Made by a program: the position numbers and the translations under genes | Part shown: piece after piece, positions 45,375-48,725 of the stretch | Position numbering within the stretch: the stretch's first letter is position 1 | Layout of the letters: each line of letters starts with the position of its first letter | Notes under the pieces: generated by a model | What the model was told of the DNA's origin: nothing | Databases searched by the model: none | What the model saw: only the letters and a program-made list of their open reading frames with translations | Source of the DNA: Ruania halotolerans | Lineage (GTDB): Bacteria; Actinomycetota; Actinomycetes; Actinomycetales; Beutenbergiaceae | Reading direction: 5' to 3' | NCBI RefSeq assembly: GCF_021049285.1 | Contig: NZ_CP088017.1 | Span: forward strand, 2,677,380 to 2,741,379 | DNA length: 64,000 nt

Positions 45375-46127
45375 TCATGCCCTCTCCTGGCGCCCGGCAC
45401 TCCCGAGGGCGGCGGGCACACTCTCGGCCTCAGGAACGAGCGCGTCGAACGGCAACTCATCCACGACCGGCCGGGGGCCCACGGGCAGGGCCCAACTTCG
45501 CCGGTGCATGGCACAGGCACCGTGCTCAGCCAGTGCCGCGAGGTGCTCCGGCGCCGAGTACCCCTTGTTACCGGCCCAGCCGTACATCGGGTAGGTCTCG
45601 TGGGCGGCCACCAACATCGCGTCGCGCTCACATTTGGCAAGCACACTCGCCGCAGCCACCACAGCGCATCGAAGGTCTGCCTTGACCTGGGTGCGCACCG
45701 GCGGCGTCGGTCGCTCCGGGCGGGGCAGGTGGGGCGGCGTGGTGAGCCAGTCATGGGATCCATCGAGGAGGACAACGCCCGGTTCGCAACCGTTCTCGGC
45801 CAGCGTGCTCAGGGCCCGCGTACCGGCGAGCCGGAGGGCGGCGATGATGCCGATCCGATCGATCTCGGCCGCGCTGGCGTGCCCCACAGCGCTGGCATGG
45901 GACCAACGGCGGATCGGCGCCTGGAGGCGTTCGCGGGCCATCGGGCGGAGCAACTTCGAATCACGCAGACCCGCCGGTATCCGCCCGGTGCTGGCATCGA
46001 CCACGGCCACGCCGACGCTCACCGGCCCAGCCAAGGCACCGCGGCCCACCTCGTCCATCCCCGCCACCAGCGGGAACTGCGTGAGCAATTCACGCTCACT
46101 CTGCCGGCCCGGCGGGCGGGTGGTCAC
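45375..46127 (-). CDS. rnhB: Ribonuclease HII
   Basis: RNase HII (250 residues) removes ribonucleotides from DNA. The catalytic D-E-D set lies in [15 protein letters not shown] and LLDGSHDWL, with [15 protein letters not shown] downstream. The GTG at 46127 overlaps the lepB stop as GTGA and gives the better start, since the longer frame would overlap lepB by 49 nt. It is part of the lepB-rnhB-DUF2469 unit. Confidence 0.95.
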
Positions 46128-46855
46128 GCCGGATCGGGGACGTCGTCGAACGTCGTGGGGTCGGTCAGCCATGTGATGCGGTCCAGAGGCCAGGTGATCA
46201 CGAATGCGGTCCCCACCACATTACGCACCGGAACGAACCCGCCGCCGACCGAACCGCCGTTGTACCGCGAGTCCTTCGAACGCGGTCGATTGTCTCCCAG
46301 CACCCACAGGTGCCCCGCGGGCACCGTGACGTCGAACTCCTGGTCACTCGGTGCAGCTCCATCAGCCACGTACGCCTCACTGATCGGAACGTCGTTGACG
46401 CTGATCAGCCCGTCATCGGTGCAACAGACCACGTGATCGCCCGGAAGTCCGACGATCCGTTTGATCACATGCTCGTCAGCGTGTTCGGGCAACACCCCGA
46501 TCCAGGTGAGGACCTGCTGGAACGGGTTGAGTTCCTGCGATTCGACGGAGAGCCAACCACCCGGGTCCAGGAAGACGACGACGTCTCCTCGCTCGAGATC
46601 GACGATGCCCGGCGCGAGCTTGTTCACCACCAGTCGGTCGCCCACCTCCAGGGTGTGCTCCATCGATTCGCTGGGAATGTAGAAGGCCTGCGCGAGGAAG
46701 GACTTCACCACCAACGAGAGCACCAGCGCCGAGACGAGTACCACCACCGTCTCACGCAGGAACGCCATCGCCGGGTGCCGTCGAGGACGTCCCCGCTCAC
46801 GCTGGTCTTGCGCGCCCTCGGTGAGGTTCTCCTCAGCGCCGCTCTCGCTACTCAT
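46124..46855 (-). CDS. lepB: Signal peptidase I
   Basis: LepB (243 residues) cuts Sec signal peptides outside the membrane. One membrane helix spans about 35-57. The catalytic Ser64 lies in [10 protein letters not shown] and Lys132 in [10 protein letters not shown], and box E is [15 protein letters not shown] 46855 follows GAGGAGGGG. The acidic cytosolic N-terminus is about 30 residues. It follows rplS. Confidence 0.96.
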
Positions 46856-46928
46856 CTGGCCCCTCCTCGAGCGGGCTGGCCCCGCGGTCACTCACCGAAT
46901 CGGTTCAGGAGCTCCGCAGGTTCAGGAC

Positions 46929-47285
46929 TCAGGCGGAGGGGGTGTCGCGGCGCTCGCGGATCTTGGCAGCCTTACCGTGCCGGTCACGCAGGTAGTAGAG
47001 CTTCGCACGGCGCACGATACCGCGGCTGGCAACTTCGATGTGGTCGATCACCGGCGAGTGCAGCGGGAAGGTCCGCTCCACACCGACTCCGAAGGAGACC
47101 TTGCGGATGATGAAGGTCTCACGCACTCCGGCGCCCGAGCGTGCGATCACAACGCCCTGGAAGACCTGGATACGGGACCGGTTTCCTTCGACGACCTTGA
47201 CGTGCACCTTGAGGGTGTCACCGGCGCGGAAAGTGGGGATGTCGGTGCGCAAAGAGGCGGCGTCGACGGCGTCCAGGGTGTTCAT
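46929..47285 (-). CDS. rplS: 50S ribosomal protein L19
   Basis: L19 has 118 residues, with [28 protein letters not shown] and the C-terminal [15 protein letters not shown] motif. The ATG at 47285 has GGGAAGG at 7 nt. The ATG at 47291 is only 1 nt from that site and is rejected. The 180-nt leader contains an unusual hairpin and repeats (47304-47446). Confidence 0.97.
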
Positions 47286-47303
47286 GCTCATGCCTTCCCG
47301 CAG

Positions 47304-47446
47304 CTGCCACAGGTCACCCGCGCTGATCCGGGCGGCTCAGGCCGCCGAGTCTTGATGGGGGGCGTGTGTACGGCCCGGGTGATCGACACTCCCCTGTGGC
47401 AGAGTGTCGCAGGAGCCCACACGCGATTGTTCAGTGTGCCACAGGG
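47304..47446 (-). promoter_or_regulatory. Structured rplS leader with loop complementary to two flanking repeats
   Basis: On the minus strand an 8-bp hairpin (arms 47402-47409 and 47384-47391) shows a 10-nt loop TGCCACAGGG (47392-47401). Upstream CCCTGTGGCA (47437-47446) is its perfect complement. Downstream CCTGTGGCAG (47304-47313) complements nine of the ten. The downstream copy ends 4 nt before the ribosome site. The loop could pair with only one partner at a time. Confidence 0.5.
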
Positions 47447-47465
47447 CCTGGGCCCGGGAGAAATC

Positions 47466-48725
47466 TCACGAAGCGAGTGTGCGCTCCATCACGTAATCGG
47501 ACTCCGTGCGTGAACCGACGGCGAACCGACGTGAGCCCACCCGGACGAACCCGTGTTTGCGGTAGAACCGTTGTGCACGCTCGTTCCCCTGGTTCACCCC
47601 GAGCCAGACGGAGTGGACCCCCCGACGCTGCGCCTCGCTGAGCGTGGCACGCATCAGCTCAGCCGCCACGGAACTGCGATGGTGTTCGGAGAGGACGTAG
47701 CACTTGCTCAGCTCGGCTCCGGCACGATCGGAGACCACCTCACGCACGTCCTCGGCCTCCGGTCGTCCCAGGGCGAGCATCGTGAAGCCCACCACGGCAC
47801 CGGCCACCTCCGCCACGAGCAGCACACGATCACGGGAACGCAGCGCGCTGCGCAGGGCAACGGCGTTCAGGTGTTCGGCCACAAAGGCCTCGGCGTCATC
47901 CGCCGGCAGGTCCGGAGGGCACGCCAGCGCAAAGGTCCGCGCGGCCACATCGGCGATCGCCTCGGCATCGACGCCCTTGGCGAGGCGCACGTGCGGCGGA
48001 GCGTGCCGCGCCAGCAGATCGGGACGCCGTCGGGCGGTGCGTTCCACGGCGCGCGAGCGGCGCCAGGTGCCGATCCGCCCATGGTCTCCGGAGCGGAGCA
48101 CCTCGGGAACGTCGAGACCCCGCCAGGACGGCGGCTTCGTGTAGACCGGGTATTCCAGGAGCCCTGCCGAACCATGGGACTCTTCCACCAGGGACTGCGG
48201 GTTGCCGATCACCCCGGGGAGCAGCCTCGCCACCGCCTCAGTGATGACCAGCGCAGCCACCTCGCCGCCGTTGAGCACGTAGTCACCAATGGAGACCTCA
48301 CGGACGGCGATGTGCTCGTGCTCGGCGTAGTGCTCGGCAACCCGTGCGTCGATACCCTCGTAGCGTCCGCACGCGATGACCAGCTGGCCGCCGGCGCACA
48401 CCAGCAGGGCGAGCTCCTCGGCCATCGACTGGGTGAAGCGTTCCCCGGCCGGGGTGGGCACGAGCACGGTGCGCCTGGCCGTCGTCTCATCGGCAGCGAG
48501 CACATCGTCCAGCGCCGCACCCCACACGTCTGGCCGCATCACCATCCCTGCACCGCCACCGAACGGCGTGTCGTCGACCGTGCGGTGCCGATCCGTCGCC
48601 CAGTCCCGCAGATCGTGCACCGCCACATCGAGCAGCCCGTCCTGACGCGCCTTCCCCACCAAAGACAGCTCGAGCGGATCGAGGTAGCCGGGAAAAATGG
48701 AGACGATGTCGATGCGACCGCTCAC
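47466..48725 (-). CDS. trmD: tRNA (guanine37-N1)-methyltransferase TrmD fused to a GNAT domain
   Basis: This protein has 419 residues, against about 230-260 for standalone TrmD. Residues 1-240 are TrmD, a knotted SPOUT enzyme with [22 protein letters not shown] and [16 protein letters not shown]. After a short Arg-rich link, residues 247-417 form a GNAT acetyltransferase with [38 protein letters not shown] and [13 protein letters not shown]. The frame is continuous with no stop or frameshift. Both domains look intact. GTG 48725 overlaps the rimM stop by 4 nt. What the acetylase modifies is unknown. Confidence 0.93.

Follow-up and report, generated by a model that had tools for sequence, protein, structure and literature searches.

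The leader of rplS, the gene for ribosomal protein L19, in Ruania halotolerans carries two hairpins, here called P2 and P3, and the pairing of their loops is, as comparison with related leaders shows, one RNA interaction in kissing form, placed directly ahead of the ribosome-binding site. The explanation that we judge the best, and consider probable, is a leader that responds to L19, in which an excess of the protein would stabilise the kissing complex and block translation of rplS. Coordinates refer to the window, meaning the whole stretch of 64,000 nucleotides that was analysed, and all features described lie on its minus strand.

Architecture of the leader

The leader extends from the trmD stop codon (47466) to rplS and was simulated as 174 nt. 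P2 (CGACACTC-TGCCACAGGG-GAGTGTCG, 47409-47384) consists of 8 bp, with arms at 47402-47409 and 47384-47391, and a 10-nt loop, TGCCACAGGG (47392-47401). Two repeats flank it, an upstream one, CCCTGTGGCA (47437-47446), which is the perfect complement of the loop and overlaps the promoter, and a downstream one, CCTGTGGCAG (47304-47313), whose CCTGTGGCA is complementary to nine of the ten loop bases. An earlier note on this DNA had described the hairpin with its two flanking complements and had placed the end of the downstream repeat 4 nt before the ribosome site of rplS; both descriptions agree with the minus-strand sequence, the site being GGGAAGG (47293-47299), a Shine-Dalgarno sequence by its letters and its position. 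The note had also held that so good a match was unlikely to be accidental, and this was borne out when the 174-nt leader was simulated by a first-order Markov model: a hairpin with 6 bp or more and an 8-12-nt loop holding a 9-mer complementary to another place arose in 20 of 20,000 cases, or about 1 in 1,000.

The downstream repeat is, on the evidence of covariation, the loop of the second hairpin, P3 (47299-47322), which abuts the Shine-Dalgarno sequence. Its arms, placed by fold and covariation, lie at 47316-47322 and 47299-47305, and its loop, GACCTGTGGC, at 47306-47315. Since the downstream repeat sits in a hairpin loop, two loops are able to kiss: the segment GCCACAGG of the P2 loop (47393-47400) would form an 8-bp helix with CCTGTGGC of the P3 loop (47306-47313), which lies within the downstream repeat. 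In the predicted fold for this genome a mismatch (G.G) interrupts the P3 stem, whose 3' arm takes up the first G of GGGAAGG. Between P2 and P3, a linker hairpin can be read from the sequence (CGGCGGCCTGAGCCGCCCG, 47329-47347), and close relatives have similar stretches. The folding energy of the leader as a whole is unremarkable (z = +0.55; 134 of 200 shuffles fold equally well or better), and an argument for a structured leader from minimum free energy was dropped on account of this z value.

The rplS gene (46929-47285) was identified by a PF01245 match (E 1.4e-48). Its longest open reading frame begins at 47291, and the second ATG (47285-47283, protein MNTLD...) is probably the true start, because the proteins of relatives start there and the first ATG stands just 1 nt from AAGG. 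Double starts like that at 47283-47291 are also present in two other leaders of the collection (L013 and L014). The trmD gene (47466-48725) is a single open reading frame of 419 amino acids, the C-terminal part of which presumably resembles a GNAT acetyltransferase; a similar trmD tail can be read ahead of rplS in several close relatives.

Collection of related leaders

Searches with PF01245 gave a match in 38 of 39 relatives, 157 of 158 genomes of the phylum and 118 of 118 genomes of the class. For comparison, 135 rplS leaders from 46 families of the same class were fetched and oriented. The P2 loop and the downstream motif were each matched independently to a consensus with up to three mismatches, which 89 of the 135 leaders passed; this replaced an earlier scoring by maximal pairing between loop and downstream repeat, which was discarded because it presupposes its own answer. 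Seven of the 89 were removed by eye as wrongly or unclearly anchored (L012, L065, L071, L086, L099, L134, L140), L018 and L112 were re-anchored, and L105 and L161 were added back from the failed list, which left 84 leaders with the element. The 48 leaders classed as lacking it include six of the seven removed ones (all but L012), and L002, L012 and L142, by eye mis-started or holding a diverged version, were placed in neither group. As anchoring relied on likeness to the consensus, strongly diverged leaders fall outside the set of 84. Alignment of this set with MAFFT (alignment A1) gave 83 distinct rows.

Covariation of the loops and stems

The kissing helix is the best supported part of alignment A1 when measured by pairing: over the 83 distinct sequences its 8 bp are formed in 98.9% of cells, with compensatory changes at five of the eight pairs and invariance at the other three. 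The whole structure of 17 pairs is paired in 91.1% of cells, a share that falls to 36-48% once the partners are displaced by one to three columns, and none of 500 shuffles reached any of five measures. RNAalifold, given the alignment as its sole input, predicted the kissing helix (as nine pairs) and no other helix, although the covariation term contributed a small share of the score (-0.46 of -14.48). In an alignment-free count over the 84 leaders, 17 cells changed on both sides still pair between loop and downstream repeat, where shuffles give a mean of 1.5 and a maximum of 7 and none of 2000 came as high; here as elsewhere, the shuffles do not preserve relatedness among the sequences. The compensated changes are spread over 12 families, and in 11 family-position cases the common pair is also present within the same family, which implies that the changes arose repeatedly.

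Individual leaders illustrate the exchange of both partners. The loop GCCACGGG is found with the downstream partner CCCGTGGC in L005, L091 and L108, GCCTCAGG with CCTGAGGC in L029, GCCATAGG with CCTATGGC in L166, GCCGCAGA with TCTGCGGC in L139, and GCCACGAG with CTTGTGGC in L101. Misfits are U.U at one pair (five sequences), G.A in one sequence and C.A in one; by position, pair 53-266 is broken in 6 of 83 sequences and pair 55-263 in one. Some P3 loops carry an extra C, which would bulge out of the kissing helix, at one of two different places (GACCTGCCGGC in L023, L030 and L116; GACCTGTGCGC in L011, L017, L021 and L025), and the GACCTGCCGGC version occurs in two families.

Both stems covary as well. 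In P3, all five tested pairs have changed on both sides and 84.2% of cells are paired in alignment A1, with arms such as CGGGT/ACCCG in L112 and TGAT/ATCA in L070; in P2 the same holds for three of four tested pairs, with 83.7% of cells paired. A further 113 distinct leaders were taken from the exact-motif matches listed, minus L261 and L286, which are identical to members of the set of 84, and plus L260. In these, P3 is paired in 513 of 565 cells (shuffle mean 364, maximum 395) and P2, more weakly, in 370 of 565 (shuffle mean 333, maximum 348). We think that the weakness of P2 comes partly from the many leaders able to use CCCC/GGGG around an 8-nt loop. The leaders thus contain two stem-loops with complementary loops, and all three helices covary, as in a kissing-loop RNA; a conserved RNA structure with covariation is likewise what a ribosomal-protein leader presents. 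When P3 segments were folded in isolation, a loop of 6-12 nt was open in only 6 of 84 minimum-energy folds. P3 alone therefore mostly closes its loop by inner pairs, with which kissing must compete, and states with and without kissing are both conceivable.

Specificity and distribution

R1, a covariance model of the leader that includes the stems of both hairpins, has one strong match in the R. halotolerans genome (E 4.4e-14, the next being 0.39). Across the class, R1 found one match per genome in 73 of 148 genomes, 14 of these 73 genomes being absent from the searches that supplied the model sequences. In the phylum set it matched 12 of 158 genomes, every one of them from that class. No match was found in 141 genomes of other classes or in five genomes of family f19, in both cases under stricter filters by which weak matches are lost. 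All 59 R1 matches for which rplS coordinates were at hand end 1-22 nt ahead of the rplS match; the other 14 of the 73 were left out of this count, though one of them (L305) holds the start of L19.

The exact pattern occurs in at least 117 stretches in named genomes. Among the 117 matches listed, rplS follows in 115 (114 by script, and L260 by eye), and the two that lack it, L199 and L213, are from metagenome-assembled genomes of other phyla and look like chance matches. The element thus stands consistently upstream of a ribosomal-protein gene, as expected of a ribosomal-protein leader. Genera with the element, among the matches listed, include Streptomyces, Nocardioides, Microbacterium, Demequina, Georgenia, Kribbella, Cutibacterium and Kineosporia. 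It was not found in the leaders of families f73 (0 of 8), f72 (0 of 4), f71 (0 of 4), f69 (0 of 3) and f78 (0 of 5), nor, once wrong anchors had been removed, in those of f19 (0 of 9) and f74 (0 of 9). From the 48 of 135 leaders without the element, and its presence in 73 of 148 genomes, it follows that rplS of actinomycetes can do without it. Four of the nine f19 leaders (L054, L084, L087, L088) have GAACCGGT and, 21-41 nt on (start to start), CCAGGTTCC before rplS, a motif pair that is diverged in L107. Their GAACC and GGTTC could pair and possibly belong to a different rplS leader.

Comparison with known leaders

Rfam searches gave no match at E ≤1 in positions 46000-48500 of the window, and for the leaders in the loci of eight relatives no family at E ≤1, with one sub-threshold snoRNA match. 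The earlier note, which knew L19 leaders from Firmicutes and none from Actinobacteria, is in accord with this: no Rfam family matches. The Firmicutes leader, which we take to be Rfam RF00556, resembles the present one as a 5' leader RNA upstream of rplS with presumed autoregulation by L19, and differs in that its model has no match here. Long-range pairing near the ribosome site is also a property of the pseudoknot operators of E. coli, those of S15 (rpsO), S4 (alpha operon) and L20 (rpmI), where it is stabilised by the ribosomal protein. In the present leader, by contrast, two hairpin loops kiss and L19 is the presumed ligand.

L19 leaders have been reported from Firmicutes and Flavobacteria, and Actinobacteria are not among the lineages given for them in the part of the report cited here (Eckert and Weinberg, 2020; PMC7247131). 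The same authors predicted actinobacterial leaders for L17 and L31, which, like the one described here, are ribosomal-protein leaders of Actinobacteria supported by covariation, but which belong to rplQ and rpmE. Table 1 of that paper has no actinobacterial rplS leader, and the words 'kissing' and 'pseudoknot' do not appear in its main text (PMC7247131). Our literature search, with subscription journals mostly outside its scope, found no earlier description of a kissing rplS leader in actinobacteria.

The promoter and alternative explanations

A promoter signature precedes the two hairpins. A -35-like box, GATTTC (47460-47465), follows immediately after the trmD stop codon, and an extended -10 element, TGGCACACT (47433-47441), contains the hexamer CACACT (47433-47438). 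The logo of 127 leaders from 43 families reads TGTGGCAnAnT, with a TTT box lying 22-20 nt ahead of the TGG, the three T's at the matching distance carrying 70%, 78% and 65% of family weight. This pattern has the form of an extended -10 preceded by a -35-like box, and it suggests promoter function. TGGCAnAnT is present with at most one mismatch in 83 of the 84 leaders with hairpins and exactly in 37 of the 48 without. In six leaders of families f72 and f69 (L092, L096, L102, L117, L132, L145), the promoter is kept and about 70-100 nt remain to the rplS start, which leaves little room for two hairpins. Promoters of S. lividans have a -10 of the form TAnnnT and, on average, 6.3 nt to the transcription start (PMC8079986). 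The promoter signature accordingly points to a predicted start region at 47424-47427, 5-8 nt past the hexamer, with purines at A47427 and G47424, so that the transcript probably begins after the upstream repeat; the literature search, of the scope given above, found no mapped transcription start for rplS.

The upstream repeat and its place in the promoter bear on two readings of the repeats that we hold to be very improbable. The earlier note had proposed a switch in which the P2 loop pairs with either the upstream or the downstream repeat. In its favour, the upstream repeat complements the loop perfectly in this genome and would be included in transcripts reading through from trmD. It overlaps, however, a promoter that is conserved regardless of the loop, and covariation, by which the note had proposed to check all three elements, is present for the loop and the downstream repeat and absent for the upstream one: two double changes were counted against a shuffle mean of 1.36, with 803 of 2000 shuffles at least equal, and the 25 loop variants pair on average at 5.56 of 8 positions with the upstream repeat versus 7.32 of 8 with the downstream repeat. 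With its promoter overlap, its lack of covariation and its retention in leaders without hairpins, the upstream repeat was rejected as an RNA partner. What stands of the proposed switch is the downstream pairing, in kissing form beside the ribosome site; as the upstream repeat is no partner, a switch, if any, would be between kissing and no kissing. Less credible still, to the point that we give it almost no weight, is that the repeats act in DNA as operator sites of a transcription factor. The three inverted or direct TGCCACAG copies around the promoter of this genome would suit such sites, but G-U replaces Watson-Crick pairs in the helix of loop and downstream repeat (8 cells), covariation is seen in the P2 and P3 stems on either side of the copies, and changes in the other two copies are not accompanied by changes in the promoter-proximal one.

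Two further readings accept the RNA structure and leave out L19. A protein-free function in cis, such as a fixed moderate translation rate, a ribosome standby site or protection of the mRNA 5' end, is rather unlikely. It would account for the structure and its place beside the Shine-Dalgarno sequence, which are supported, L19 being a ligand that we infer; the invariant loop bases GCC/GGC (three of the eight pairs), however, suggest recognition, even with the bias towards invariance that anchoring to a consensus brings, and the element is strictly linked to a ribosomal-protein gene whose product is the presumed leader ligand elsewhere. We think it more unlikely again that the leader senses a factor other than L19, whether an RNase, an RNA chaperone, an assembly factor or another ribosomal protein such as S16, which belongs to the same operon. 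Here too L19 is a regulator by presumption, and in the window rplS follows closely after trmD, but the element adjoins rplS and stands behind a promoter signature of its own.

A model for control of rplS

Translational feedback by L19 is favoured over these readings on three grounds: the proximity of the Shine-Dalgarno sequence, the strict association with rplS, and the fact that L19 leaders exist elsewhere, the reports from Firmicutes and Flavobacteria being what makes L19 a plausible ligand. We infer from them control at translation, with repression on binding. The gene's own promoter just past trmD would yield a transcript with some 140 nt of 5' leader, which would fold into P2 and P3, their loops pairing over about 8 bp as a kissing complex, with P3 ending at the Shine-Dalgarno sequence. 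L19 in excess of free 23S rRNA would bind and stabilise this fold and so hinder 30S binding; with plentiful rRNA, L19 would leave the leader, the fold would loosen and rplS would be translated. Obvious mimicry of 23S rRNA was rejected, as the longest words shared between the leader and the 23S rRNA of the same genome are 9-mers, and the two loop motifs match it with no fewer than three and two mismatches.

A wider proposal, to which we give about even credence, is that these leaders form an undescribed class of L19 leader, present in many families of actinomycetes, where L19 recognises an intramolecular kissing complex and not an rRNA look-alike, and that they supply the control of rplS that has been missing for the trmD operon. 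The regulation of this operon is called unknown in the part cited here of a 2024 review (PMC10931766). The comparison has taken a false partner, the promoter, out of the proposed switch, and the leader model can be used for genome annotation. The class would add to the ribosomal-protein leaders one based on a kissing-loop complex, and the leader offers a concrete, testable element for the gap in trmD-operon regulation in Streptomyces and many other actinomycetes.
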